This document shows positions 7,585-63,249 of a stretch of DNA of 64,000 bases, in pieces. The stretch spans positions 124,001 to 188,000 of the forward strand of contig JAMPKV010000009.1 of the NCBI GenBank assembly GCA_039962225.1, written 5' to 3'. The stretch is from Microcoleus sp. AS-A8 (GTDB taxonomy: Bacteria; Cyanobacteriota; Cyanobacteriia; Cyanobacteriales; Coleofasciculaceae). Each line of letters opens with the position of its first letter. Position 1 is the stretch's first letter. The position numbers and the translations under genes were made by a program. The notes under the pieces are model-generated. The model saw only the letters and a program-made list of their open reading frames with translations, ran no database searches and was not told where the DNA came from.

Positions 7585-9165
7585 ATGCAACAGAAAATCC
7601 TCTATGTTCGGCTTCCCTGTAACCCCATCTTTCCGATTGGTGTCGTTTACTTAGCCGATCACGTTCATAAGTTGTTTCCAGAAGTTGAGCAGCGCATCTT
7701 TGACTTGGGAACGGTGCCTCCCCTGGATTTTGCCAATGCCCTCGATACCTGCGTTGACGAGTTTCAACCCACGCTGTTGGTGTTCTCCTGGCGTGATATT
7801 CAAATTTATGCGCCCGTAGGGGGACGAGGAGGCAATCCCCTACAAAATGCCTTCGAGTTCTACTATGCTCGTAACCCCTTCATCAAGCTCAGGGGAGCTT
7901 TGGGGGGTTTGCGTCTAGCTGCGTCTTACTACACGGAGCTCTGGCGCAACCTCGGCTTAATTCAGCAAGGGGTCAAACGATCCCAAAAATACCACCCAGA
8001 AGCGCGTGCCATTGTCGGTGGGGGGGCAGTGAGTGTGTTTTATGAACAACTGGAAAATAAACTCCCCACCAGAACTATTGTTTCCGTAGGTGAAGGGGAA
8101 GCGCTCCTGGAAAAAATTCTACGAGGCGAAAGTGTTGAGGGTGAGCGCTGTTATGTGGTTGGGGAGACTAAACCGCGCGATCGCTTAATCCATGAACAAC
8201 CCGCCCCCCTAGAAAAAACCGCTTGTAATTACGACTACATCGAACAAATCTGGCCGAGTTTTGATTATTACCTACAAGAAAACGACTTCTATATAGGTGT
8301 ACAAACCAAGCGAGGTTGTCCGCACAACTGCTGCTATTGCGTCTATACCGTAGTGGAAGGCAAACAGGTACGGATTAACCCAGCTTCGGAAGTGGTGGCT
8401 GAAATGCGCCAGCTTTATGATCGCGGCGTCCGTAACTTCTGGTTTACCGATGCTCAATTCATCCCGGCGCGCAGGTTTATGGATGATGCCATTGAACTGT
8501 TGCAGAAAATTGTTGATTCAGGCATGAGGGATATACATTGGGCGGCTTATATTCGGGCAGACAATTTAACGCCCCAATTGTGCGACCTCATGGTGAAAAC
8601 CGGCATGAATTACTTTGAAATAGGCATCACCAGCGGTTCTCAAGAACTGGTGCGGAAGATGCGGATGGGTTACAACCTACGTACCGTCTTGCAAAACTGC
8701 CGAGATTTGAAAGCGGCTGGCTTTAATGACCTGGTTTCGGTCAATTACTCGTTTAATGTCATCGATGAACGACCGGAAACTATTCGTCAGACTATTGCCT
8801 ATCATCGGGAGTTAGAGCGGATTTTTGGAGCGGATAAAGTCGAACCGGCTATCTTCTTTATTGGGTTACAACCCCACACTCACCTGGAAGAGTATGCGTT
8901 TGAAAATAACATGCTCAATCGCGATTATGACCCGATGAGCTTAATGCCTTGGACAGCCAAGAAACTGCTGTGGAATCCAGAACCTTTGGGGTCGTTTTTC
9001 GGGGAAGTTTGTCTTCAAGCATGGCGGCAAAATCCGAATGACTTTGGGCGGGAAGTCCTGAAGATTCTTGAAGGACAATTGGGTTGTGCACCGTTAGAGG
9101 AAGCACTAACCGCTCCCCTTGAGCCGAAACAGAAACAGGATAAACAACTGGTTACTGTTGTATAG
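7585..9165 (+). CDS. B12-binding-domain radical SAM protein
   Basis: The 526-residue product has an N-terminal Rossmann-like cobalamin-binding-type domain (about residues 1-190, with the signature-like AIVGGGAVSVF and VSVGEGEALLEKIL). A radical SAM core follows, with the [4Fe-4S]-binding CPHNCCYC motif (Cys245, Cys249, Cys252) and later FEIGITSGSQELVRKM. The cobalamin-binding DxHxxG motif is not present in canonical form, so bound B12 is not certain. The class covers methyltransferases and anaerobic cyclases such as BchE, and the substrate here cannot be named. The gene starts at ATG 7585 and is followed after 135 bases by the DICT/HD gene on the same strand. Confidence 0.85.
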   Translation: MQQKILYVRLPCNPIFPIGVVYLADHVHKLFPEVEQRIFDLGTVPPLDFANALDTCVDEFQPTLLVFSWRDIQIYAPVGGRGGNPLQNAFEFYYARNPFIKLRGALGGLRLAASYYTELWRNLGLIQQGVKRSQKYHPEARAIVGGGAVSVFYEQLENKLPTRTIVSVGEGEALLEKILRGESVEGERCYVVGETKPRDRLIHEQPAPLEKTACNYDYIEQIWPSFDYYLQENDFYIGVQTKRGCPHNCCYCVYTVVEGKQVRINPASEVVAEMRQLYDRGVRNFWFTDAQFIPARRFMDDAIELLQKIVDSGMRDIHWAAYIRADNLTPQLCDLMVKTGMNYFEIGITSGSQELVRKMRMGYNLRTVLQNCRDLKAAGFNDLVSVNYSFNVIDERPETIRQTIAYHRELERIFGADKVEPAIFFIGLQPHTHLEEYAFENNMLNRDYDPMSLMPWTAKKLLWNPEPLGSFFGEVCLQAWRQNPNDFGREVLKILEGQLGCAPLEEALTAPLEPKQKQDKQLVTVV

Positions 9166-9300
9166 GAAACTGGGCAATTTGAAAGCGTTGCCCGTACAAT
9201 GACTGGAAAAGTAGCGCTCTCTTTTTTTCGGTTGCCTATAGAGATTCTTTTTTAAGAGCGTCCTTTACATGTTTGTGGTTGGAGATCAAAAAACCTAACA

Positions 9301-10701
9301 ATGCTGGAAGGTTCGATTTTACGAAAGTTAGAAGCAGCCCATCGAGGAAGTAAAAGACCTCTAAACTTTGGGGTTTATTACAAAAACACACTCGTTGCTC
9401 TGTGCCATGCTCTGGAAGACTTCATTCTGGAGTCTGGCGGTACACCTCTGATGATTACAGCTTTCCAGCGAGGTAAGTGGTATTTGCAAGAGGCAGAGCG
9501 TTATGGAGATTTAGCCGAGAAAGCTTCTCAGGTGGTGATTATGGCAGCATCTGATGCTGGCTTTGCTGAACACCCGACAAGCCAACGGTCGAATGTGGAA
9601 CTGGTGAATCTGACACCGGATGATCCAGTGGCTCAAGAGTGGCACCTGATTATTTTGTCGGAGACTTACTCCGCGATGGTACTCTGTCAAGAGTTATCGT
9701 CCACAGATTATGGGCCAACGGGTTTACCCGAAAATGATCTAGAACGCAAGTTCTATGGATTTTGGACGTTTGAGGCCGAACTGGTACAGGAGACAATAGA
9801 CTTAGCGATCGCGCATATCGGTCGTTATGCTCCAGACTTGCAGCAAGCCTTGAAAAGCCAAAAACAAAAGATTACCGCCGCCTATGGCACCAAGCCACGA
9901 GACGACATTGGCATAGTGGTGGCTCGTGTGGTGGATTATCTTCAACATAGTCAAGAAGATGTCTCTCACCTTGGGGAAAACGAACTGTTTGCCTCGCCGA
10001 TTCATGAACAGGCGTTAGATGACAACCTGCTATCTAGCGAGATGCAGGCATTTTTGCGGATGGCGCAGCTCATCGACCAAGCAAATGCGGCGAATCCCTT
10101 GGCGGCGGCTGAGGTGGCTGCAATGGCAGAGGCCATGGGACAAATGCTGGATATTCCGTCGTGGCAGCTCAAGCGTCTACGTCTGGCGGCGTTATTGCAT
10201 GGGTTGGGTTCGTCGTTGGTGACAGCCGTTCATTCCCAGGACGAAGCCCCCAGTTGCCCTCTAACGTCGGCTGTGCAGGCATTACGAGTGATGCCCCGCA
10301 TGAGAGCGATCGCCCAAATTATCACTCACCAAACCGAGTGGTGGGATGGTACGGGTCTGCCCGCTGGCTTAGCTTATGATGCCATTCCTTTAGAATCGAG
10401 AATTTTAGGACTGGTGGCTCACTTTCAGTGGCACGTCAGACAGCTACGGATGTCACAAGAAGGAGAGGAGACAACCTCCAATCTCGAAGAAACCTTATCC
10501 AAAGCGTTAGCCCAATGTCAGCGCCAAGCAGGCGAAGCGTTTGACCCCAAACTCGTTGAAGCTCTATCTTTACTGGTTATGGGGATGCAACAGGGCATGA
10601 GCTTGCAGGTGAATCAACCTAAAATTGCAGCAGGGATGTGGTTGCTCGATTCCCATCCGAATGAAGAGTTAAAGGTTAGCAAGTTGAAGCTTGAAGATTA
10701 G
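9301..10701 (+). CDS. DICT sensor / degenerate HD-GYP protein
   Basis: The 466-residue product starts with a DICT-type sensory domain (about residues 1-190; segments LNFGVYYKNTLVALCHALED and FYGFWTFEAELVQETIDLA). A linker follows, then an HD-GYP-like domain (about 250-440). In the second domain the fold is recognisable from LRLAALLHGLGSS, HQTEWWDGTGLPAGL and IPLESRILGLVAHF. However, the metal-binding HD pair reads HG, and the late ALAD-type aspartate is replaced. The protein is therefore probably not an active cyclic-di-nucleotide phosphodiesterase and may act as a sensor or binding scaffold. DICT domains are known from cyanobacterial light and two-component signalling proteins. Confidence 0.8.
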   Translation: MLEGSILRKLEAAHRGSKRPLNFGVYYKNTLVALCHALEDFILESGGTPLMITAFQRGKWYLQEAERYGDLAEKASQVVIMAASDAGFAEHPTSQRSNVELVNLTPDDPVAQEWHLIILSETYSAMVLCQELSSTDYGPTGLPENDLERKFYGFWTFEAELVQETIDLAIAHIGRYAPDLQQALKSQKQKITAAYGTKPRDDIGIVVARVVDYLQHSQEDVSHLGENELFASPIHEQALDDNLLSSEMQAFLRMAQLIDQANAANPLAAAEVAAMAEAMGQMLDIPSWQLKRLRLAALLHGLGSSLVTAVHSQDEAPSCPLTSAVQALRVMPRMRAIAQIITHQTEWWDGTGLPAGLAYDAIPLESRILGLVAHFQWHVRQLRMSQEGEETTSNLEETLSKALAQCQRQAGEAFDPKLVEALSLLVMGMQQGMSLQVNQPKIAAGMWLLDSHPNEELKVSKLKLED

Positions 10702-51898: not shown

Positions 51899-52084
51899 AA
51901 CTTTATTTTTCTATCTGCACTTGCCACGTTAATACAGGAATGAGCTAGATTTTCTCTTGCTTAAGGTAGAGATATGCAAGTTATTTAGCTTCATGCTCGA
52001 ACACTTTCTCTTGCCAGTGCTTTATGGGCTTTTCCTTCACCAAACTTTACTTAAACTTCATATAAACTCAGGAAAATTGAAGTT

Positions 52085-52558
52085 CTATGCAGCATCGGGA
52101 TTAAGGTCAATCATCCTCCGGGTTGTATAACTTCCAATCGGACTCCAAATTAGGTAAGGCAGTAGTAAAAGAGCAGCCTGTCCAGAAATAGGCGAAACAA
52201 CCAGCGTCAGCAGAACTCCTAAAATTACACCAACCCACCCTAGAAGTGTGCCAACTCCGAGGCTCCGCCGTCTCAAGGTAGCAGGAATGTAAGCGACTGT
52301 GATTACTTCGACTAGCAAGTAAAATCCCATGAGTAACCAAGTTCTAAGACTCCCTGGCTCTTTTTCCCACACGAGAACCGCTGACCCGGCTCCACAAGCA
52401 AAAATGACAGTCCAGATGAATGGGATAGCCGGCTCAAAGAATAGCCACTTCGGTCGAGAAAGGTGTTGAGACCAAGAGATATCCTTTGGTCTAATCAAAC
52501 TACTACCTAGAGCAACTATTAATGTTACACCATCAATTATCATCCAAGGTTTTAGCAT
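52085..52558 (-). CDS. TspO/MBR-family membrane protein
   Basis: The 157-residue product has five hydrophobic helices, the TspO layout. Helix 2 carries FFEPAIPFIWTVIFACGAG, and the end LLLPYLIWSPIGSYTTR corresponds to the conserved last helix. The N-terminal WxPP-type motif is altered (LSRPKWLFFEPAIP). TspO proteins bind porphyrins and have been linked to stress responses and tetrapyrrole regulation. Divergence from the typical aromatic motif makes a tryptophan-rich sensory function likely but not certain. Confidence 0.8.
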   Translation of the reverse strand: MLKPWMIIDGVTLIVALGSSLIRPKDISWSQHLSRPKWLFFEPAIPFIWTVIFACGAGSAVLVWEKEPGSLRTWLLMGFYLLVEVITVAYIPATLRRRSLGVGTLLGWVGVILGVLLTLVVSPISGQAALLLLPYLIWSPIGSYTTRRMIDLNPDAA

Positions 52559-52934
52559 TTTTCCCCCAAGACTTGAGCTATATCATTAGTGTTTATAATC
52601 TGAGTCAAATCCGATATATAAATTGTGTCTGGTTAAGGTATCGCTTTAATCAGTCTTTGGTCTGAAAGAAATCTCAAAAACTGAGGCTTTGATTTGAGTG
52701 CTGTATTTTGTGTTCGCCGTTACACGCTAACTGAAAATTAACGGCTTATTTTTCAGTTAATCAGTGCCGATGCCCAACTTTTTGAGAACGCCGTTAGCCC
52801 CTCAATGGCTACTCGCAATTACACGTTCAAGCGGTAGTATCTTCCTTTGTTGAAGCAATTCGGAGCAGTACGGATTGAAGATTCAATCATTATAAAGTTG
52901 TGATAACTTTATTATTGAGTTCAGTGCCGCTAGC
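52559..52934. other. Intergenic region between divergent genes, with hairpin
   Basis: About 376 bases between the TspO and SMP-30 genes, which are divergently transcribed. TAACTGAAAA (52728-52737) pairs with TTTTCAGTTA (52750-52759). No ORF or riboswitch is recognised. Confidence 0.45.
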
Positions 52935-53966
52935 ATGAAAAACCTAATCTTGAGAGTTACTCAATACAGCCTTTTATTTACGGTTTTAACCACTGCGCCC
53001 AGCAACGGTGTTACTCAAGGAAGAAATGATTTAGGGTTTCGATGCTCGAAGTCTCAAACGAACTCCCGCCTAACTTCACCACAATCGAGGAATATGAGCA
53101 ATAAAAATACTCTACAAGCGATTCTTGATGACAACGCCCAAGTCAAAAAAGTGGCGGGAGACTTCCAGTTTACGGAGGGGCCGCTGTGGCATCCCAAAGG
53201 CTTCTTACTCTTTAGTGATATTCCTGCCAACACCCTTTATCAATGGACAGCCAATGAAAAACTAGAGATATTTCGTCGCCCTTCTGGAAATGCCAATGGT
53301 AATACTCTAGATCGAGAGGGACGTTTACTCACGGCTGAGCATGGTAATCGTCGTGTATCCCGTACTGAAAAAGACGGCACTATTGTTACGCTGGCAAGTC
53401 AGTTCGAGGGAAAGCGACTCAACAGTCCCAATGATTTGGTGGTCAAATCAGATGGAAGCATCTACTTCACCGACCCCCCCTATGGCATTAAATCTGAGCA
53501 GGAGGAACTGGGCTTCTATGGTGTGTATCGATTGTCATCGGATGGAAAACTGACTTTGTTAGTGAAAGACTTCGTGCGTCCCAATGGCATTGCTTTTTCA
53601 CCGGATGAGAAAAAACTATATGTGAATGATTCCGAAAAAGGTCACATTCGTGTCTTCGATGTGAAATCGAACGGTACATTGGAAAACGGGCAACTGTTTG
53701 CAGAATTGAAAGACCCCAGTAAAAATGGTGTTCCAGATGGAATGAAGGTAGACCAAGAGGGGAATGTTTACAGTACTGGGCCTGGGGGCATATGGATTTT
53801 CTCACCGTCAGGCAATCTATTAGGCATTCTTGAAGTGCCAGAGGTGGCTGCTAACCTGACCTGGGGCGATGAGGACTACAAAACGCTCTACATTACCGCA
53901 AGTAATAGCCTTTACCGTATCCGCCTCAAAATCCCCGGTGTGCGAACGGGCTTGCATGGGGAGTAA
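52935..53966 (+). CDS. SMP-30/gluconolactonase-family protein
   Basis: The 343-residue product has a possible signal segment (about 1-22) and a short variable stretch, then a six-bladed beta propeller. It carries the SMP-30 metal-site features: FTEGPLWHP with the ligand Glu, NSPNDLVVKSDGSIYFTDPP with Asn and Asp, and PNGIAFSPDEKKLYVNDS. Family members are calcium- or zinc-dependent lactonases. The substrate is unknown; a gluconolactonase-type reaction is the usual assumption. An internal ATG at 53094 is an alternative start without the leader. Confidence 0.88.
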   Translation: MKNLILRVTQYSLLFTVLTTAPSNGVTQGRNDLGFRCSKSQTNSRLTSPQSRNMSNKNTLQAILDDNAQVKKVAGDFQFTEGPLWHPKGFLLFSDIPANTLYQWTANEKLEIFRRPSGNANGNTLDREGRLLTAEHGNRRVSRTEKDGTIVTLASQFEGKRLNSPNDLVVKSDGSIYFTDPPYGIKSEQEELGFYGVYRLSSDGKLTLLVKDFVRPNGIAFSPDEKKLYVNDSEKGHIRVFDVKSNGTLENGQLFAELKDPSKNGVPDGMKVDQEGNVYSTGPGGIWIFSPSGNLLGILEVPEVAANLTWGDEDYKTLYITASNSLYRIRLKIPGVRTGLHGE

Positions 53967-53978
53967 CGTTTGACAATA

Positions 53979-54075
53979 TAGCGGTTCTCGATTGGGTGGA
54001 GTACATCTAACTTCTGCCCTTTGCCCTCTGCTTGAAAACCGTCAGCCTTGTACTTCATCTAAATGCAAACCGCTA
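53979..54075. mobile_element. MITE-like element, copy 3 (97 bp)
   Basis: The left end TAGCGGTTCTCGATTGGGTG and the right end (reverse strand) TAGCGGTTTGCATTTAGATG have the same ends as copies 1 and 2, with TA on both flanks (53977-53978, 54076-54077). The interior differs and is short, so this is an internally deleted or separately derived member. It lies 13 bases behind the SMP-30 stop. Confidence 0.68.
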
Positions 54076-54122
54076 TACCCGACTATCAATTCCCTCGTAC
54101 AGTGTAGGCGTAATCGGCTCAC

Positions 54123-55520
54123 TCAGATTAGGATATTCACGACGGGAATTAGCGCCTCTATATCAATTCTTGCCGTGTACACGATCTGTCTTCCTTGAAT
54201 ACCCTTCAAATCTTCATAATGTTTTTGAATTCCCGATACTCCATTAGCCCTTAATGCGGCTAAGAAAGATTTATCATTATAAACCTCATCAGAGAACGAG
54301 ATTTCGTAGCTTCTTGAGACGTTTTGAATGCGTGCTGCTTTATTGACGACTGAGCCAAAATAATCGAGACGATTATTGAGAGTAACCAGCACGGCAGAGC
54401 CGCAATGAATTCCAAATTTAACCTGAATTTGTTCAAACTCCGGGCGATTAGAGTTGTAATTGCGAAACTCTAACCAAGCATCTGTCGCTGCTTTTATGGC
54501 TTGTTCATTGGTTAAAAAAGAACCCATTACCGCATCGCCAATGGTTTTGACTACAGTTCCCCCATGCCGTTCAATTGCCTGAAATAAAATTTCAAAATGG
54601 TCGCGCACGATATTATAAGCTTTGGCATCTCCTAGGGTTTCATACATCCGAGTAGAACCCGTAATATCGGTAAACATAATAGTAACAGAACGAACTTTCA
54701 TTCGTTCGCGATCTGATAAAAATTGCTCACCAAATATGCGTTTGTAAGCGGAGAAATGAATAATTTGAAGACCGCTAAGACGGGGAGGAAGTTGATCTAA
54801 GCTCAGCTCATCTGGTAAGCCTTCAACATGCATAATCAGGCCGGATAGCGAGTGACCAATATTGGTGAGTTCAATTCTGGTTTTACCAGGACGGACAGTT
54901 AGCTGGGTCTTATCAAAGTGCTTGCCTTCCAATTGCTTGATGCAAATTTCTTGGAGTTCCTCCGTCTCTTCGCCGTCTACCACCAAAATTCCTTTGGCCA
55001 AGGTGAGAGGACAGCAGTAGCGATATCTCCCTTTTTCCAAGATGACGATAGCAGAGTCAGTTTCATTGAGCGGAGTAACCAGTTGAAATTTAGCTTTTAA
55101 TATAGGCGGGGGAGCGCAGATAGGAGAAAGTTTTGGGTCTTCAATTTCTTTATTGAGGGAGAACGTCACTTCAACGCGCTCCAAAAAATCAACCTCAAAG
55201 CTACGTTCACACATCTGGCAAAACGAGAGTGCTGAGGCATTTTTTAAGTCATTAAATTCAGCAGTAATCATATTGCAATGAGGGCAGTGAACGTCCCAGT
55301 GCAAATCAAATACCCCTGCCTTGACGCCATATAAAAATTCAGAGGTAATTTCTTCCACATGGCAAGCGGAATTAGCGGCGATATAATGAGGATTTATTCT
55401 AAGTCTTTGGAGAAGACTTGAATTAAATAACCAGTTTTTTATGGCCTCAATTGCCACTAGACTTGCACTAGTTCTCTTTTTTAAATTTTCGATTTTTTGT
55501 ATTAAAATCTCACTCTTCAT
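54123..55520 (-). CDS. Adenylate/guanylate cyclase with N-terminal zinc-ribbon-like region
   Basis: The 465-residue product has a class III cyclase domain at its C terminus (about 280-450). The metal Asp residues lie in IMFTDITGSTRMYE and KTIGDAVMGSF, the latter with a Lys that favours ATP over GTP, and the catalytic Asn/Arg pair in GSVVNKAARIQ. The N-terminal half contains CPHC ... CQMC spacing of a zinc ribbon (about residues 80-110) and a domain unrelated to common sensors. The protein is predicted to make cAMP in the cytosol. The regulator that senses the signal is not identified. Confidence 0.9.
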   Translation of the reverse strand: MKSEILIQKIENLKKRTSASLVAIEAIKNWLFNSSLLQRLRINPHYIAANSACHVEEITSEFLYGVKAGVFDLHWDVHCPHCNMITAEFNDLKNASALSFCQMCERSFEVDFLERVEVTFSLNKEIEDPKLSPICAPPPILKAKFQLVTPLNETDSAIVILEKGRYRYCCPLTLAKGILVVDGEETEELQEICIKQLEGKHFDKTQLTVRPGKTRIELTNIGHSLSGLIMHVEGLPDELSLDQLPPRLSGLQIIHFSAYKRIFGEQFLSDRERMKVRSVTIMFTDITGSTRMYETLGDAKAYNIVRDHFEILFQAIERHGGTVVKTIGDAVMGSFLTNEQAIKAATDAWLEFRNYNSNRPEFEQIQVKFGIHCGSAVLVTLNNRLDYFGSVVNKAARIQNVSRSYEISFSDEVYNDKSFLAALRANGVSGIQKHYEDLKGIQGRQIVYTARIDIEALIPVVNILI

Positions 55521-55735
55521 TGGAACTTTACTTTATAACTTGGTGCTATCAAATTCCTCCTATCTGTTTTGTAGCCCGTAGCGGACATTGCCGCTCGGAA
55601 AACTTGGAACTTATAGCGCGAGTTAGATGTCCATGAGTTTTATAAACTAATGTAACAATCCGTGAGCCAGTAATAAATCAGCAATTTGGAGCATTCCCCT
55701 AGACTGACTCCGAGTTTTGTTCAACCGCCCGACGC

Positions 55736-56144
55736 TTAATGCCCCAACAATTTATCTCGTAAATGCTTAATCCGATCGCGATATTTTGCCGCCTCCTCAA
55801 ACTCCAACTTTTTCGCCGCTTCCTTCATCTGCGCTTCCAACTGAGTAATTAACTGCGGAATCTCCTCTAAAGACAAATCATCCGACTGCTGATAAACCTC
55901 TTCCAATTGTTGAGCATTCAACCGCCGCGACACTTCCAAAAACGCCAAAATTGAATTACCTGCTTTTTTCACAATCGGCTGAGGTGTAATCCTATGCATC
56001 CGGTTGTAAGCTAACTGAATTCCGCGACGGCGTTCCGTTTCATCAATCGCTTTAATCATGCTATCGGTGAGATTATCCGCATACATAATCGCTTGCCCCC
56101 GCACATGACGCGCCGCACGTCCGAGTGTGTGAAGGCGCGATCGC
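55736..56144 (-). pseudogene. uvrB: Truncated copy of the uvrB 3' end
   Basis: Read on the minus strand, the sequence matches the last about 135 codons of the intact uvrB at 61252-63249, including the stop codon. By hand alignment about 11 residues differ over the 121 compared. Similarity continues upstream through LGRAARH and ends at a HIP1 octamer (56137-56144). The DNA before that is unrelated. The fragment lacks the helicase body and cannot be functional. It runs in the same orientation as the full gene, so the two copies are direct repeats around the GTPase cassette. Confidence 0.9.
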
Positions 56145-56319
56145 TCCCCAGGTTAGATAAGCCGCTTTCCCCGTTGTAGTTGGGATGAGGACAACCGTAA
56201 ATTCACCTAACTTCGTCTCGAAGACAGTTCTTGTTTTAGGTAAATTCCACATTCCCCTGGTGAGTGTTACTGATCTACCGTCAAGTAGGTTTCGCAACAC
56301 GGCTTAAAAACGCGGCTAC

Positions 56320-58500
56320 ATGAATATAAATAGGACTGCGAGAATTGCCAGCATTATTGAGAAGCGTCGTCCCTTGGCACAGAAAATCGAAGGAGTTGAG
56401 GCAAATCTGAAATCTCTTGTTTCAGCACTGCGTAATCTTGAGGATAACCGCAATCAACTGCTGACACGGGTTGATGAGCCAAATGTTAAGGGACAGTTGA
56501 AGGAAATCGATTTTTCGACGATTCAGTTGATTGAGGAAGAGTCCAAGAAGCTTAAAACTCTGAGGAAACGCCTCTCACGTCCTACCCTCAATATTGGTGT
56601 GGTGGGACGAATGGGACAAGGAAAAAGTACTCTGCTAAAAAGCCTGAGTGGGCTGACTGATAATGAGATTCCCGCTTATGAAGGGGGAGCCTGCACAGCC
56701 GTCCGCAGCACGATTGAAAATAAAAATGAGGCGACTAAAGCTGAGGTCACACTCCATTCAGAGCAGTCATTTTTAGAAGAGGTAATTTGGCTCTACTACG
56801 ACAAACTAGGCTTTACTAACAAGCCAACTAGCCTAGATGATTTTGCTAATAAGCCATTTCCTGATCAGCTGCCTAGTGGTGCTACTAATGAAGAAACGTA
56901 TAAGCGCCTATGCGAAGATTATCACTACAACTTAGAAAGGTATCGAGAGTTGCTCACTCCTGGGACAGTAAAGACACTCCAGATTAGGAACGAGGAAATC
57001 CCAGACTATGTGATTCAAAAACGGGACAAAGACCATCGTCTCACTACTTTCAAACATTTAGCAGTACGAGAGGTCAAGATATTTTGTCCTTTCAAAAATT
57101 CTGATTCAGGAAAGATTGCGCTGGTTGATGTACCAGGCTTAGGCGACACCAAGCTAGGCGATGAAGAGTTAATGCTACAAACTCTAGGACAGGAGGTAGA
57201 TGTTGTCCTTTTCATCCGCAGACCCGATCCGCAACGCTATCAATGGCAGGCAGTGGATACACAGCTTTATGATACGGCTGCCAAAGCCTTAAATAACTTG
57301 GCAGGCAGGTCTTTTATGGTTCTCAATCATAGCGTTAGAACTGATAACCTCAAAGCCTGTGAAGCATTACAGAGCAGTATTGACACTATTAAGGTTGTTC
57401 GGTGTGAGGTTGCTGATTGTTCTAATCCTAACGATGCCAACAGAGTTTTTGATTTAGTTCTTGATTATCTAGCTAACAATATTGAGTCTCTGGATAAAGA
57501 CTATGCAAAATCCTGTCAGGAGAGTCTGAGTCACATTGAGGCAAAAGTTAAGACTGAGCTAGACAAGGCACGAAATAGCTTAGGTAAAGAAGTACAACAA
57601 AATAAGGATGCTCAACTTTTTGTCCCTCGATTCAATCAACTTTGGAAAAATCTCAGGAACGGTCTTCAGGAACTACTTCAGGAACTCAGAAAGCAGCGTG
57701 ATGATGTAGATACTAACTTCAAGGCAGAGGTAGACGAGGCTATCCAAAATTGTCGAGAGGATACGGGCATTCCATCAATTGAGAAGATTGAAATTCAGGC
57801 TAGGAGTACAGGCGGCTATCCCAATGCTTACTATCAGTATCTTCCAGAGGTTCGCGCCCACCTATCACATAAATTTTTGTCTCTAGATGAAGGTTTAAAA
57901 CTTTCACTAGAGCAGGTGAAATCTCAGGTAGCAGAGGTACTCATCAATCAAGGGCGCTTGGGGGGATTGACAAAGGCGCGAGGGTCTGAATTGATTAGGG
58001 GAATGGCAAAGCTATTACCTGAGCAACTAATACCAGGAGAACCAAGCAAACTGAAATTTGGATTTCAACTGCTTGCTGAATTTGAGCTTTCTTATCGGGG
58101 ATTTATTCAGCATCGAATTCGGCAGCATTTGGATGGTCTTACTCCTAATGAGCCAGCAACTCTTCAGCTATCTACATCTCCCTCTGCTCAACAAGTTTTT
58201 CTCAATCTTAAGACAGCTCATGCAGAAGCCGTTTATCAGTGTGAGAATGCTCTAGAAAATTTGCTTTCTGAACCTAGTCAAGCCGCCTTTGCAATTGTCG
58301 AAGAATTTCTTGATCGCATACTACGTGCAGAAGATGTCGAGAGTGAGTGGCGCATCTTTCTCGATGATGTGCGCTCAGAGGTGTGGCCCGATGAATTCAA
58401 ACAGCTAAATGAGCGAACTCGGATGCGACGAGAGTGGTTAGACGCAGTAGAGCGTGCAGCACAAATCAATAAATCAAACTCAATGCATTCTTTGAATTAA
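56320..58500 (+). CDS. Dynamin-like large GTPase
   Basis: The 726-residue product has an N-terminal helical stretch (about 1-85) and a GTPase domain. G1 is GRMGQGKST (residues 96-104), the G2 Thr lies in GACTAVRST (about 126), G3 is DVPGLGD (270-276), and a G4-like NHSVRTD is at 336-342 in place of NKxD. A long alpha-helical C-terminal half follows with no membrane helix. This resembles bacterial dynamin-like proteins, which remodel membranes. It is the first gene of a tight three-gene cassette (17 and 9 bases between genes), and the three are probably co-expressed. G+C looks lower than in flanking housekeeping genes. Confidence 0.85.
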   Translation: MNINRTARIASIIEKRRPLAQKIEGVEANLKSLVSALRNLEDNRNQLLTRVDEPNVKGQLKEIDFSTIQLIEEESKKLKTLRKRLSRPTLNIGVVGRMGQGKSTLLKSLSGLTDNEIPAYEGGACTAVRSTIENKNEATKAEVTLHSEQSFLEEVIWLYYDKLGFTNKPTSLDDFANKPFPDQLPSGATNEETYKRLCEDYHYNLERYRELLTPGTVKTLQIRNEEIPDYVIQKRDKDHRLTTFKHLAVREVKIFCPFKNSDSGKIALVDVPGLGDTKLGDEELMLQTLGQEVDVVLFIRRPDPQRYQWQAVDTQLYDTAAKALNNLAGRSFMVLNHSVRTDNLKACEALQSSIDTIKVVRCEVADCSNPNDANRVFDLVLDYLANNIESLDKDYAKSCQESLSHIEAKVKTELDKARNSLGKEVQQNKDAQLFVPRFNQLWKNLRNGLQELLQELRKQRDDVDTNFKAEVDEAIQNCREDTGIPSIEKIEIQARSTGGYPNAYYQYLPEVRAHLSHKFLSLDEGLKLSLEQVKSQVAEVLINQGRLGGLTKARGSELIRGMAKLLPEQLIPGEPSKLKFGFQLLAEFELSYRGFIQHRIRQHLDGLTPNEPATLQLSTSPSAQQVFLNLKTAHAEAVYQCENALENLLSEPSQAAFAIVEEFLDRILRAEDVESEWRIFLDDVRSEVWPDEFKQLNERTRMRREWLDAVERAAQINKSNSMHSLN

Positions 58501-58517
58501 TAAATTAAGGAGAATCA

Positions 58518-59489
58518 ATGTCACAAGAAATTAAAATTGCCATGCTTGGAGCAAGAGGCGTTGGCAAAACTAGTTTTTTAACTGCCATGTATGAGCAATT
58601 TGAGAGTACGATTGGTCAAACCAATTTACAACTTACACCTGACTTGAAAAGTTCGGCAATTTTACAGGAGCGTTTAGGAGAACTAAAAAGTCTTACAGAT
58701 GATTTTGAAGCTACAGGAGGAATTTTAGGTACCTCTGATATTCGCTCATTCATTTTTGATTTGGGAAAGAAGGGGGAGAAGCCATCTTTACGCTTACACT
58801 TTCAAGATTTTCCGGGTGGTTACCTCAATAGTCAAGCAACCTCTGAAAACAGAAACTTTGTCAGAAATTTGCTGACTAAATCTGCCGCAGTTCTCATTGC
58901 CGTCGATGCACCTGCACTTATGGAAGCAGGTGGCAAGTGGCATGACAAAATCAATAGACCGCAGCAAATTGCTCACCTTTTTCAATCAGTGTATCAAGAT
59001 CTGAAGTCACCACGACTGGTTATCTTGGCTCCTGTCAGGTGCGAAAAATACATGCAAGATGCAACTTCTGCCAATGCTTTACTGAAGCGTATTAAGGAGA
59101 AATATGCTAACTTACTAAACCTTTTCAGCTCAGAAGCTCTGCTGCCTTGGGTAGTCAGCATAGTTACGCCGATTCAAACTGTTGGTACGGTGGTCTTTTC
59201 TCATATTGAGGTGGCTAATGGAACGCCTCACTTTTACTTCCGTAAGACGAGTCACGATGCTGAATATAGCCCTTGCGATAGCGAACAGCCTCTGCGATAT
59301 CTGTTACGATTCGCGTTGAAACTCCAGATTGAGTCTAGAAATTGGAGCTGGGGTCTATTCAGTCCTATCCGCATTTGGTTGGGTTGGGATAACCATATCA
59401 AGGAAGCAGCTCGTCAGTCTGCCAATGGATGCAAATCCACTTGGGGGTTCACAGTACTCCAAGGGGAAAAATGGCTAAGTGTTGGATAG
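58518..59489 (+). CDS. Small P-loop GTPase of the DO-GTPase type
   Basis: The 323-residue product starts with a Ras-like P-loop GARGVGKTS (11-19). A Walker B/G3-like DFPG (97-100) is reached through IRSFIFDLGKKGEKPSLRLH. Then comes AAVLIAVDAPALMEAGGKWH and a region RLVILAPVRCEKYM that would be the G4/G5 part. The overall pattern recalls the 'double-GTPase' families described in prokaryotic conflict systems. AAGGAG precedes the ATG by 7 bases. It is probably a partner of the dynamin-like protein. Confidence 0.75.
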   Translation: MSQEIKIAMLGARGVGKTSFLTAMYEQFESTIGQTNLQLTPDLKSSAILQERLGELKSLTDDFEATGGILGTSDIRSFIFDLGKKGEKPSLRLHFQDFPGGYLNSQATSENRNFVRNLLTKSAAVLIAVDAPALMEAGGKWHDKINRPQQIAHLFQSVYQDLKSPRLVILAPVRCEKYMQDATSANALLKRIKEKYANLLNLFSSEALLPWVVSIVTPIQTVGTVVFSHIEVANGTPHFYFRKTSHDAEYSPCDSEQPLRYLLRFALKLQIESRNWSWGLFSPIRIWLGWDNHIKEAARQSANGCKSTWGFTVLQGEKWLSVG

Positions 59490-59498
59490 GAGTTAGCA

Positions 59499-60566
59499 AT
59501 GAAAATTTACGTCCAAAGTTGTGGTGTTGCTCAAGAACATGATTACTGTTGGCTCAATGAAAGCCAAAACATTGTAGAAGAACCTGGCTTCGTCAAACAA
59601 GCCAAAAACTTAATTCAAAGTGAAGCACATTCAGTTGTTATGGCACGGAATAGCGATCAATTACTATTGCTAGTAACTGGTCTTAAAGCAAGTGGGCGAA
59701 AAGATTATCGGGGTCGTCCAATAAGAAACTCACTAGTCTGCATAGGTCAAGCCTGGGTAGATCAACCAACTGATGAACAAACTGATGAACCTACTTTGCG
59801 AGCAATTGCTGCTCGTGCGTTACTAGGTACTTTGGAAAAAGACATAGATGATGCAGTGAAGTCAGGTGGTGAGAAAGGTTTTGAGGTTTCGTTTGAGAAG
59901 CTTAAAACCTTAACTGAAGCTGTAAAAAAAACCGCTAAAATTGAGTGCATAGCTCCGAATGAAGAGACCAATGAAGATAGGCAGAAAAAGAAAATAGGAC
60001 GCACTTCAGACAAGCTTAAACAAGAACTCGCTAGTGACCTTGAAAAATACTGCTTACCAAGGCAAAAAACCGAAAATAAAACAGATAATCAGCAAGTTAT
60101 GCCACTGGTTGTCGTGACGGGAATTCAGGACGAGGAAACGCTCCAAAACAAAAAAGTATGGCGGGGATTGTCAAGTCTAGTTGATTCAAATTCACAATCT
60201 TGGAAAGAGATAAAATCTTATCAAAATCCAGCTCAAAATGGTGGCAACCAAGGAATAGCACCAAGATTGGTAATAGTCATAATTATCATTTCTTTGTCTT
60301 TTAATATTGGGCTATTATCTCAGCAGGTAGGAGCACGGGATAGAATACGAAATTTAGAAAACCAAGTGCAGAATCTACAGGCTCAAAAACTGGCTTTAGA
60401 AAATCATGTACAGCCACTCAAAACTCAAGTACATGATTTAGAAACTAAACTTCAGAAACAACGTAATCAAAGGGCTGATTTAAAAACGGTTGTCAAAAAT
60501 TTACAGACTCAAAATGGCAACCTTGAAAATCAAGTAAAAGCTCTAGAAAATCAGATTAGCCGTTAA
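59499..60566 (+). CDS. Membrane-anchored coiled-coil protein of the GTPase cassette
   Basis: The 355-residue product has an N-terminal globular part of about 200 residues (MKIYVQSCGVAQEHDYCWL ...) and a charged linker. One membrane segment (about 256-275, PRLVIVIIIISLSFNIGLL) follows, then a coiled coil of about 75 residues to the C terminus built of NLENQVQNLQAQ-type heptads. AGGAG sits at the stop of the previous gene, giving tight coupling. No family was recognised with certainty. The N domain could be the partner of a GTPase-associated system. Confidence 0.65.
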   Translation: MKIYVQSCGVAQEHDYCWLNESQNIVEEPGFVKQAKNLIQSEAHSVVMARNSDQLLLLVTGLKASGRKDYRGRPIRNSLVCIGQAWVDQPTDEQTDEPTLRAIAARALLGTLEKDIDDAVKSGGEKGFEVSFEKLKTLTEAVKKTAKIECIAPNEETNEDRQKKKIGRTSDKLKQELASDLEKYCLPRQKTENKTDNQQVMPLVVVTGIQDEETLQNKKVWRGLSSLVDSNSQSWKEIKSYQNPAQNGGNQGIAPRLVIVIIIISLSFNIGLLSQQVGARDRIRNLENQVQNLQAQKLALENHVQPLKTQVHDLETKLQKQRNQRADLKTVVKNLQTQNGNLENQVKALENQISR

Positions 60567-60633
60567 GCTCAATGGATTAATGCTGTGTTAGCGATCGCAT
60601 CTTCCCAATATCCTCATGAGGTGCGATCGCATT

Positions 60634-61203
60634 TCACCACACCTTGCCCAAATCCAACACAAACCCAGGCAAAACACCCTCTCCCGATAACGTTGCCGGA
60701 GACTGCAAAACCTCTACATCCTGCCCCAGACGATAAATTTCCACTTGCTTCGTCGTGGAATCAATCAACCAACCTAAGCGAACCCCATTATCGATGTACT
60801 CCTGCATCTTTTGTTGTAACTTCTTCAACGAATCACTACTAGAACGCAACTCCACTACAAAATCAGGAGATAGAGGAGAAAACTCCTCCTTTTGCTGAGT
60901 TTCACTCAACGCTTCCCACCGCTCATTACTCACCCAACTCGCATCAGGCGACCTAATAGCACTATTAGGTAAAGTAAATCCGGTAGAGGAGTCAAAGCCA
61001 AAACCTAAACCCGTCCGTTCAATCCAAGCACCGAGTTGGGCGATAATTCCAAAGTTTTGCTTACCTGTCCACGGGAAAGTGGGGGGCATAATAATGACTT
61101 CTCCTGTCGCCGTAAGTTCTAGCTGCAAGTCTTGATTCGCTTTGCACAATTCAAGAAAACCTTCTGCGCTCAAACGAGGAATAGTCAAGGTGATGGCATT
61201 CAT
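60634..61203 (-). CDS. Uma2-family (DUF820) endonuclease-like protein
   Basis: The 189-residue product has the Uma2/PD-(D/E)xK fold: IRSPDASWVSNERW (the Pro-Asp before the catalytic strand), SPDFVVELRSSSDSLKKL (Asp-x-Glu pattern with the downstream Ser-Asp) and IDNGVRLGWLIDSTTKQVEI. The family is highly expanded in cyanobacteria, where most members are restriction-like nucleases of unknown role. It lies on the opposite strand to the GTPase cassette and the same strand as uvrB. Confidence 0.85.
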   Translation of the reverse strand: MNAITLTIPRLSAEGFLELCKANQDLQLELTATGEVIIMPPTFPWTGKQNFGIIAQLGAWIERTGLGFGFDSSTGFTLPNSAIRSPDASWVSNERWEALSETQQKEEFSPLSPDFVVELRSSSDSLKKLQQKMQEYIDNGVRLGWLIDSTTKQVEIYRLGQDVEVLQSPATLSGEGVLPGFVLDLGKVW

Positions 61204-61251
61204 CGGCTCTACCCTAATACCTGAGTTTGTGACCTTAATGATAAAAGCAGC

Positions 61252-63249
61252 TTAATGACCCACAAGTTTATCTCTTAAATGCTTAATCCGATCGCGGTAT
61301 TTCGCCGCCTCTTCAAACTCCAAATTCTTGGCTGCATCCTTCATCTGCGCTTCCAACTGAGTAATTAACTGCGGAATCTCCTCTAAAGACAAATCATCCG
61401 CCTGTTCATAAACCTCTTCCAATTGTTGAGCATTCAACCGCCGCGACACAGCTAAAAACGCCAAAATCGAATTACTGGCTCTGGAAACAATCGGCTGCGG
61501 TGTAATCCCATGCATCTTGTTATATGCAAGCTGAATTCCTCGACGCCGTTCCGTTTCATCGATCGCTTTAATCATGCTATCGGTGAGGTTATCCGCATAC
61601 ATAATCGCTTGCCCCCGCACATGACGCGCCGCACGTCCAATCGTTTGAATTAGCGATCGCGCTGCCCTTAAAAACCCTTCCTTATCCGCATCCAAAATCG
61701 CCACCAGAGACACCTCTGGCAAATCCAACCCCTCCCGCAACAAGTTAACCCCAATCAACACATCAAACTCCCCTTCCCGCAACGCTTGCAAGATTTCAAT
61801 CCGCTCAATTGATTGAATTTCTGAGTGCAAATAACGCACCTGAATTCCTCGTTCTTGCAAGTATTCCGTTAAATCCTCCGCCATGCGCTTGGTGAGGGTG
61901 GTTACCAACGTCCGTTCTTTCCGCTTCACCCGTTCCTTAATCTCACCCAAGAGGTCATCAATTTGCCCCTCTGTCGGACGCACAAAGATTTCTGGATCAA
62001 TCACACCCGTCGGGCGAATTACCTGTTCCACAACTCGATTCTCCGACTGTTCAATCTCCCAGTCTCCCGGTGTTGCTGAAACAAAAATACATTGATTGAC
62101 TTTCGTCCAAAATTCCTCTGCCTTCAAGGGACGATTATCAGCCGCACTCGGCAAGCGAAAACCATGCTCAATGAGTACTTTTTTCCTAGCTTGGTCGCCG
62201 TTGTACATCCCCCGAATTTGCGGTACCGTAGCGTGAGATTCATCCACAACTAACAGCCAATCGTTGGGGAAGTAATCAATCAAACACTCCGGGGGTTCCC
62301 CAGCTTGGCGTCCCGCTAAGTGACGAGAATAGTTTTCCACGCCGTTGCAGTAACCAACTTCCCGCAACAGTTCCAAATCGTAACGAGTACGCTGTTCTAA
62401 TCGCTGGGCTTCCAGTAACTTTCCCGCATCCTGCAATTGCACCAAACGCTCCCGAATTTCTGCCTCAATCGCGTCACAGGCGTCCTCTAGCTTGTCATCT
62501 GGGGTAACAAAGTGACGTGCAGGGTAGATATTCAAGGCGTTCAGACTGGTGATAATCTCGCCGGTAACTGGGTCAATGTAGCGAATCGCGTCAATTTCAT
62601 CGCCAAAGAATTCTACACGAATAATTCGGTCTTCGTAGGCTGGGCCAATTTCCACGACATCGCCCTTCACCCGGAAGCGTCCCCGTCCCATCTCTAAATC
62701 ATTGCGCGAATACTGTACTGAGGCTAAGTCTCGCAATAACTGGCGTTGGTCAATTACCTTCCCGACTCCTATGGGAATCGCGGCCTTCAGGTATTCTGAG
62801 GGAATGCCCAAGCCATAGATGCAGCTAATTGAGGCTACCACAATTACATCCCGACGTTCAAACAGCGATCGCGTTGCCGAGTGCCTGAGCATATCAATTT
62901 CATCATTAATCGCTGCACTCTTCTCTATATAAGTGTCGGTGACAGGGATATAAGCTTCGGGCTGGTAGTAGTCGTAGTAAGAAACAAAGTACTCAACGGC
63001 ATTACGGGGAAAAAACTCCCGCAACTCATTACATAACTGTGCCGCCAGGGTTTTGTTGTGGGCGAGAACGAGAGTCGGTTTGCCGATTTTCTCAATCACA
63101 GCCGCTACGGAGAAGGTTTTACCGGTTCCCGTTGCGCCAAGTAGGGTTTGGAAGCGATGATTCCCTTGAAGGTAGGAGGTGAGTTGTGCGATCGCGTGGG
63201 GCTGATCGCCAGTCGGTTGAAAGGGGGCTTGGAGTTGAAAATGCGACAT
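61252..63249 (-). CDS. uvrB: Excinuclease ABC subunit B
   Basis: The 665-residue product is a full UvrB: Walker A GATGTGKT (38-45), the beta-hairpin region [18 protein letters not shown], helicase motifs [13 protein letters not shown] and [12 protein letters not shown], and the C-terminal UvrC-binding domain ([16 protein letters not shown]). UvrB verifies damage and forms the preincision complex in nucleotide excision repair. Full-length and apparently functional. Its 3' end is duplicated at 55736-56144. Confidence 0.98.

Follow-up and report, generated by a model that had tools for sequence, protein, structure and literature searches.

DO-GTPase/GAP1 systems have been described by Kaur et al. 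(2020, PMC7159879) as predicted conflict systems with variable effectors which are nearly absent from cyanobacteria. In this study we analyzed a related three-gene cassette in the cyanobacterium Microcoleus sp. AS-A8 (assembly GCA_039962225.1). It lies in a stretch of 64,000 nucleotides, referred to as the window, which covers positions 124,001 to 188,000 of contig JAMPKV010000009.1, and encodes a dynamin-superfamily protein (A), a DO-GTPase2-family GTPase (B) and a membrane protein with a likely longin fold (C). As in the DO-GTPase/GAP1 systems, a third component is encoded directly downstream of a DO-GTPase2-family GTPase, and the membrane link, the variable C-terminal tails and the sporadic distribution are also shared (PMC7159879). 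In contrast, the cassette occurs in cyanobacteria and has a dynamin gene upstream, GAP1 was not detected, and B starts almost at its P-loop, which leaves no room for N-terminal zinc ribbons. The word dynamin is absent from the text of PMC7159879.

With bacterial dynamins such as NpBDLP, SynDLP, IniA and the Campylobacter pair, A shares the GTPase domain and the predicted long helical bundles. It differs from them in lacking a TKxD G4 motif and a membrane helix and in sharing its operon with genes for a DO-GTPase and for a longin-like membrane protein. DynA of Bacillus subtilis, also a bacterial dynamin, delays phage lysis, and a K56/K625 mutant loses this effect (PMC8844932). However, each DynA chain carries a pair of conserved GTPase lysines, compared to the single GTPase domain of A, and the parts of that paper considered here describe no partners such as B and C. 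LeoA and LeoBC of PADLOC are dynamin-like defence proteins with a weak likeness to A and with different partners. A GTPase with a roadblock or longin partner is found in the SR-beta/SR-alpha pair. The same applies to MglA/MglB, Rag/FLCN and Rab/TRAPP, and prokaryotes and eukaryotes are said to share the mode in which small GTPases bind to roadblock/longin dimers (PMC10933270). Unlike in these pairs, C is anchored in the membrane and encoded with a dynamin, and no sequence homology to them has been shown. We found no description of the trio in the open-access literature searched (subscription papers and preprints lay outside the search). The parts belong to known families; their combination, a relative of the DO-GTPase systems which includes a dynamin and in which no GAP1 was detected, is new to us.

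Results

A preliminary description of the window, made from the sequence alone, had reported three co-directional genes with intergenic gaps of 17 and 9 bases, and the coordinates of the open reading frames (ORFs) agree with it (Table 1). The strong Shine-Dalgarno sites it mentioned are clear by eye ahead of B and C but not ahead of A. In a collection with one genome per species, tblastn found A, B and C in this order and on one strand at 23 of the 27 loci found with B, or at 24 when L016, whose C was found by blastp, is added. Among the other loci without the trio, the sequences of L005 and L011 start no more than about 260 bases from B, and L023 is without C. All three genes were also present in order at 16/16 further loci searched with a tblastn-type script; these came from 20 regions chosen among the matches to B in relatives and to C across the phylum (L083, L086, L087 and L088 not included) and were mostly chosen by a match to C, so that this count tests A and B rather than C. 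Hence, the trio is kept as a unit in other cyanobacteria. The A gene is in pieces at L004, L020, L021, L025 and L026, owing to decay or sequencing error.

The distribution is patchy. Of 57 relatives, 25 had B, and an even sample of 292 genomes from the phylum yielded C in 22, the latter possibly an undercount as at most eight candidates were scored per genome; B and C each had a single match in the 7.7-Mb genome of the host itself. The cassettes of a Chloroflexaceae (L020) and a Hyphomicrobiales (L022) metagenome-assembled genome, on contigs of 14.2 and 6.6 kb, group with cyanobacterial A alleles and possibly reflect misbinning or recent transfer; they were not counted as other phyla. In a plasmid collection of 72,556 records, relatives of B occurred on 4 records and relatives of A on 10, each count including a chromosome-sized Nonomuraea record of 11.85 Mb which holds A, B and C (L127). 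The whole trio, with a small fourth gene behind it, is carried by an Aulosira conjugative plasmid (L128) and a Nostoc plasmid. On a Streptomyces plasmid (L130), which also has a fourth gene, A matched at 1.2e-73, B at 6.3e-20 and C at 0.084 with a hidden Markov model, and at E 1.3e-4 and a probability of 54% by hhalign. The fourth gene after C on the plasmid versions (L128 11301-11759, L130 11074-11493) is unclassified.

The sister species (G001) carries a cassette at the identical uvrB site. In bins of 200 bases, the identity of the two sequences was 89-98% in both flanks and 46-80% inside the cassette, and at the right edge it changed from 47% (bin 60400-60599) to 89% (60600-60799). Synonymous divergence (dS) in A was 0.16 for codons 1-30, 0.29 for codons 31-50 and 1.50 beyond, and reached 1.36 in B and 1.76 in C (overall values of the three genes 1.28-1.78), compared to 0.10-0.34 in 13 flanking orthologues. 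Because the excess also affects synonymous sites, rapid evolution of the proteins does not suffice to explain it; the alleles of the two species are different ones, and the cassette was swapped as a block which extends from about codons 30-50 of A to a point between C and the Uma2-family gene. The Uma2 gene (dS 0.28) belongs with the uvrB neighbourhood and not with the exchanged block. Moreover, in a tree of 40 A proteins the A of G001 joined L002 and L003 at 100/100, without the A of the window, and an approximately unbiased (AU) test with 14 rows rejected a clade of the two sisters (p-AU 0.0048). Together with the plasmid carriage, this block replacement bears out the mobility that had been suspected; the membrane link is supported as well, and the anti-phage role stays a proposal.

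The flanking orthologues comprised six near the cassette and seven more from the stretch L131, where nine of 15 ORFs were matched and six were not; ORF 8300-10213 was dropped as an out-of-order paralogue with saturated dS, window gene 63511, present in both sets, was counted once, and the truncated uvrB (dS 0.33 to the full gene of G001) was left out. The G001 stretches contained no match to the window genes to the left of 49.3 kb or to those at 52085-55520. At the corresponding place G001 lacks the interval 52075-56097 of the window, which holds a gene of 343 amino acids (aa), a DUF5939/guanylate-cyclase gene and the greater part of the truncated uvrB.

Gene A matched the Pfam profile Dynamin_N at 1.2e-8 (35.6 bits, above the cutoff of 27). 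Its G1 (GRMGQGKS) and G3 (DVPG) motifs are intact and TKxD is lacking; the G4 place reads LN-x-T or a shorter form, and [NT]KxD occurs there in 0 of 22 A proteins, although the string is found elsewhere in three of them. An AlphaFold2 model built with 21 sequences had a predicted local distance difference test score (pLDDT) of 82.3 and a predicted template modelling score (pTM) of 0.55, which makes the mutual placing of the domains uncertain. Foldseek matched the model to BDLP (4.2e-13, 797 columns) and SynDLP (5.4e-13), and VIA-align to mitofusin-1 with Z 22.0 and a root-mean-square deviation (rmsd) of 4.6 over 334 residues (model range 10-726). The profile thus identifies the GTPase domain, and the model supplies the helical bundles which complete the dynamin fold. 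A is a dynamin-superfamily protein, and these predictions argue strongly for a fold like that of mitofusin and BDLP, in line with the dynamin-like GTPase with an atypical G4 that had been described. No membrane helix was found in the A of the window, and one of 22 A proteins has a borderline stretch at the hydropathy threshold used for C. Therefore, A may need C or a paddle to make contact with the membrane.

Gene B, described before as a small P-loop GTPase, belongs to the DO-GTPase2 family by profile (2.5e-7, 31.0 bits, cutoff 27), and 24 of 25 B proteins matched the model at E 0.01 or less. It has the motifs GARGVGKT (G1) and DFPG (G3), whereas the G4 place reads CEKY in all 25 B proteins and [NT]KxD in none. 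For the DO-GTPase family a conserved glutamate in the Walker B motif was reported (PMC7159879). The B of the window reads DFPGG, and a glutamate follows D[YF]PG in 10/25 B proteins, where the exact position meant in that paper may differ. A borderline hydrophobic stretch is present in 13 of the 25 (in the window 1.63 at residues 208-226, beside the G5 place), which we take as a core strand. Searches of solved-structure sequences with A and B of the window and with profiles of A, B and C gave no strong relative (matches at 0.003 or higher, mostly P-loop) and, by the profile of C, no longin match.

Protein C is conserved over about 230 residues, which are followed by a membrane helix and a variable end. 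Hydropathy indicated one helix in the window (residues 250-278) and in 24/25 C proteins, so the single-pass topology that had been proposed stands. The long C-terminal coiled coil proposed with it is present in the window, but it is not conserved: the tail has 77 residues with a coiled coil in the window, 148 in L003 and at most 10 in many members. One member has a WD40 match, and the 19 Pfam matches of the window C were all below cutoff and of coiled-coil type. The AlphaFold2 model of C (pLDDT 84.5) starts, according to DSSP, with the order E-E-H-E-E-E-H-H, which is the strand and helix order of longins. In VIA-align, 40 of the best 50 rows covered the N-domain (residues 1-150). Sorted by their titles, 24 of these listed rows were of longin/roadblock type, several repeating one complex, and 16 were PAS/LOV/GAF or other. 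The best N-domain row was the GATOR1-RAG chain 6ces_N (Z 4.7, rmsd 4.5, 127 residues), along with the FLCN-complex chain 8dhb_J (Z 4.6, rmsd 4.7, 125 residues), the Lst4 longin (Z 4.4, rmsd 4.8, 119 residues), the TRAPP core (Z 4.3, rmsd 3.7, 105 residues), Sec22b (Z 4.2, rmsd 4.6, 112 residues), SEDL (Z 4.1, rmsd 3.9, 102 residues) and MglC (Z 3.3, rmsd 3.4, 83 residues). We conclude that the N-domain of C likely has a longin fold, a moderately strong prediction compared with that for A.

Of the Pfam families considered for the trio, Dynamin_N was found on A and DO-GTPase2 on B, whereas GAP1 was not detected. GAP1-N2 was found in 0/57 relatives, in 0/190 genomes of the class of G327 and not on the one Streptomyces plasmid, while in the accompanying controls the family rang in one of 14 genomes each time. 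Likewise, no GAP1 model was among the 19 Pfam matches of the window C, remote GAP1-N homology being outside the scope of this search, or among 25 of the 74 families listed for 25 C proteins. No GASH or FNIII name appeared among the listed Pfam matches (E at most 1) of the trio and three neighbours, the existence of a Pfam GASH model being unchecked.

Association of A with other partners was seen on several plasmids. On three plasmids, two from Calothrix and one from Pseudanabaena, A has neither B nor C within about 6 kb, and an Anabaena plasmid holds a shortened A. The A-type dynamins of the Calothrix plasmids (L135 5929-8304, L136 5899-8307) stand beside filamentous haemagglutinin-like genes, that of the Pseudanabaena plasmid is near toxin-antitoxin genes and transposases, and in the Aulosira and Nostoc plasmids there is a single gene between A and a TrsK-like transfer gene. 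The Stanieria plasmid pSTA7437.02 (L137 6001-13907) encodes an A-type dynamin, then a DO-GTPase-like protein (DO-GTPase1 1.6e-5, below cutoff) and two unclassified proteins of 992 and 473 aa. On plasmid pNsp_h of Nostoc sp. ATCC 53789 (L138 3140-5695, 6007-8652), an A-type dynamin is divergent from two related DO-GTPase-like genes, one of which passes the DO-GTPase1 and DO-GTPase2 cutoffs; this set is possibly another dynamin/DO-GTPase system. As A stands beside other DO-GTPase-like genes on these two plasmids, the dynamin/DO-GTPase pairing recurs in other architectures. Of its forms at the loci seen, the trio is the most frequent. C had no match to the proteins at L137 9412-12390 and L138 662-3100, both unnamed by Pfam and NCBIfam. 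The unclassified 992-aa protein of L137 occupies the place of GAP1 in DO-GTPase systems; the likeness of its start to GAP1-N is an impression by eye and not a result. At L138 a third small gene looks GTPase-like by eye.

The trio is flanked by the Uma2-family gene near uvrB on one side and by a truncated uvrB 3' end on the other. The setting between an intact uvrB and a truncated direct repeat, as reported before, was confirmed, but the interval also holds the Uma2 gene on the opposite strand, which had gone unmentioned. The truncated copy is a 122-aa ORF with Pfam UvrB and UVR matches. All seven uvrB loci of the same family that were examined (L113-L119, 16-18 kb each) are without the cassette there, and in G012 uvrB is followed by one small ORF and the Uma2 gene. 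Accordingly, the cassette is not a fixed neighbour of uvrB. Nevertheless, the site is perhaps less accidental than the preliminary description assumed, since uvrB is also near the cassette in some other lineages. Of 37 cassette genomes surveyed, G196 had no uvrB match; among the remaining 36, six genomes from three of 27 genera (g1, g21, g52) have uvrB at most about 6 kb from the cassette, while in many others the two are on different contigs. In the window and at L085, L090, L096, L091 and L021 the distance is about 0.7-6.5 kb (L021 about 6.5 kb). With one uvrB per genome of 3-9 Mb this is more than expected by chance, according to an after-the-fact calculation, and could mean that insertions recur in this region or that the position is old and was followed by losses and allele swaps.

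The uvrB repeat is 84.4% identical to the uvrB of G012, to which the intact copy is 83.9% identical, while the intact uvrB genes of the two sisters are 96.1% alike. In G001 about 48 bp of the truncated copy remain beside the cassette. Given this remnant and the divergence of the repeat from the intact copy (Table 1), the repeat is probably older than the split of the two species. It could be a single-crossover scar or result from insertion at the 3' end of the gene. We did not regard it as an integrative element with the repeat as att site, as the interval holds no integrase and usual att sites are much shorter than 411 bp.

The defence context was examined with PADLOC at E 1e-10. We compared 153 of 159 neighbour ORFs of at least 140 aa within 3 kb (scanned in sets of 78 and 75; four L127 ORFs and the uvrB and Uma2 genes of L082 left out), obtained after dropping eight loci judged near-duplicates, with 76 of 105 control ORFs from uvrB loci and G001 stretches. 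Left out of the control were six uvrB genes, the Uma2 gene of L113, L118 12864, L121 1550, three L122 ORFs and all of L123 and L124, and its listing excluded ORFs above 1300 aa or with unread bases. Among the matches listed, the first neighbour set had single-member MTase_II, MTase_III, DpdF and PsyrT matches, the second had kinase-type PD-T4-6, mad6/mad3 and MkoA matches in two members, and the control had MTase_II, orphan MTase, DpdF, mad2/mad3, a TIR effector and the Uma2-type PDC-S03. The comparison is coarse, with 25 of 54, 129 and 34 families in the respective listings, and it does not favour the location near known defence genes that the preliminary description had raised. A Dnd cluster is found about 16 kb from the cassette, with DndB (4.7e-143), DndC (1.6e-196), a DndD/PbeC-like gene and an HNH gene, which are 91%, 89%, 94% and 70% identical in amino acids between the two sisters and provide no evidence of local gain or loss. 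Against PADLOC-DB 2023, A, B and C gave weak partial matches only and no full-length protein model; A matched LeoBC at 7.4e-6 and LeoA at 4.7e-4, with the best stretches at residues 24-123 and 57-113.

Table 1. Features of the cassette and its surroundings (window positions unless stated otherwise)
Feature	Position	Strand	Description	Evidence
Gene A	56320..58500	+	dynamin-superfamily GTPase (predicted), 726 aa	Dynamin_N, predicted fold, motifs, hydropathy
Gene B	58518..59489	+	DO-GTPase2-family GTPase, 323 aa	Pfam profile, motifs
Gene C	59499..60566	+	predicted longin-like N-domain, membrane helix, C-terminal coiled coil, 355 aa	AlphaFold2 model, hydropathy
Predicted longin-like domain of C	59499..59948	+	residues 1-150	DSSP of model, VIA-align rows
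Membrane helix of C	60246..60332	+	residues 250-278	hydropathy 2.29
Coiled-coil tail of C	60336..60560	+	residues 280-354, differs among relatives	
Exchanged block, left edge	56407..56469	+	about codons 30-50 of A	dS step, window vs sister species
Exchanged block, right edge	60567..60633	no strand		identity step to sister species
Uma2-family gene	60634..61203	-		PF05685 6.1e-45
Intact uvrB	61252..63249	-	665 aa	dS 0.20 to sister species
Truncated second uvrB 3' end	55734..56144	-	411 bp	88.8% identical to 61250-61660
Dnd phosphorothioation cluster	L131 13999-19899 (contig about 201.0-206.9 kb, outside window); G001 L140 14430-19474			

Discussion

We propose that A, B and C form a mobile accessory module which senses or answers attack at the membrane. 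Biological conflict is its most likely purpose, a reading to which we give about even chances, since conflict systems, too, are patchy in occurrence, carried by plasmids, exchanged as blocks and variable in their tails. In such a module, C would be held in the membrane by its single helix with a longin-like platform facing the cytosol. B might dock on this platform and be switched there, with C acting as a GTPase-activating protein, a guanine nucleotide exchange factor or a scaffold, and the activated pair of B and C would recruit the dynamin A. By means of GTP, A could then oligomerise on the membrane and seal, tether, fuse or break it. It may thereby delay lysis by phages in the way DynA does, or else kill the infected cell or isolate it. 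A bolder version, which we offer tentatively, regards the cassette as GTPase-gated membrane fusion or tethering used for immunity, in which a DO-GTPase, a longin platform and a dynamin of the mitofusin/BDLP type would work as one machine in cyanobacteria and actinobacteria and be exchanged as whole alleles.

Several observations weigh against the conflict reading or parts of it. The PADLOC genes within 3 kb were not visibly enriched, a search of phage records gave no relative of B, and in viral contigs ten stretches fitted a pattern but none was confirmed. The Dnd genes are kept between the sister species; the exchange is therefore specific to the cassette and does not concern local defence genes generally. 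The recurring proximity to uvrB leaves room for an old inherited position. As A occurs without B and C on several plasmids, the trio is not the sole way in which A works. Furthermore, all longin rows of C have Z below 5, no Foldseek match was obtained at 0.001 or less, and 16 of the 40 listed rows are of PAS/LOV type, so that the longin fold is only likely.

Among the alternatives, accessory membrane maintenance fares best, although we consider it unlikely. According to this explanation, the cassette would repair or remodel the plasma or thylakoid membrane under stress such as light, desiccation or antibiotics, with no special role against phages. By eye its neighbours are mostly ordinary genes, and many hosts are, going by their names, presumably filamentous or mat-forming cyanobacteria. 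Membrane repair has been proposed for the cyanobacterial SynDLP by its authors (PMC10104851). However, the cassette is patchy even among the relatives, plasmid-borne, replaced as a block and variable in its C tail, which would be unusual for maintenance genes.

The N-domain of C could also be a PAS-like ligand sensor instead of a longin platform, and a small molecule would then drive the switch. Matches such as the histidine kinase EL346 (Z 4.6, rmsd 4.9, 130 residues) and RsLOV (Z 3.6) point in this direction, but longin/roadblock chains are more numerous even though several repeat one complex, and the order of strands and helices is that of longins, which makes a PAS sensor distinctly unlikely. 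Longins have themselves been placed in the PAS/GAF superfamily (PMC4917890).

We regard it as improbable that the trio primarily serves mobile elements in entry exclusion, inter-plasmid competition or maintenance and was captured by chromosomes later. The occurrence of A on the plasmid records mentioned above, its position one gene from a TrsK-like transfer gene and its vicinity to toxin-antitoxin genes and transposases would agree with such a role; on the other hand, cassettes lie on ten contigs of at least 1.9 Mb, i.e. chromosomes or parts of them, and none of the three genes was recognised by Pfam as a relaxase, replication gene or integrase. Kin or contact discrimination, in which alleles are exchanged since difference itself is selected, would fit the strong divergence after block exchange at a fixed site and the haemagglutinin-like neighbours on the two Calothrix plasmids, but it is very improbable given that Pfam recognised no secreted or toxin-like part in the trio, that a membrane helix is absent from the A of the window and B shows just a borderline stretch, and that the cassette is missing from many genomes.

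The function of most bacterial dynamins is unknown. A has a conserved set of partners, namely a switch GTPase and a membrane anchor, through which the recruitment and the trigger of a dynamin become testable. If the module is defensive, it would extend the DO-GTPase conflict systems by an effector based on a dynamin and represent a form of them in cyanobacteria, from which they were described as nearly absent (PMC7159879). If the longin-like fold of C is true, the operon would be a simple model of a GTPase, a longin and a dynamin acting together, which bears on the origin of eukaryotic membrane traffic. Should the immunity reading also hold, one prokaryotic operon would unite three kinds of protein which eukaryotes combine for membrane identity and fusion.

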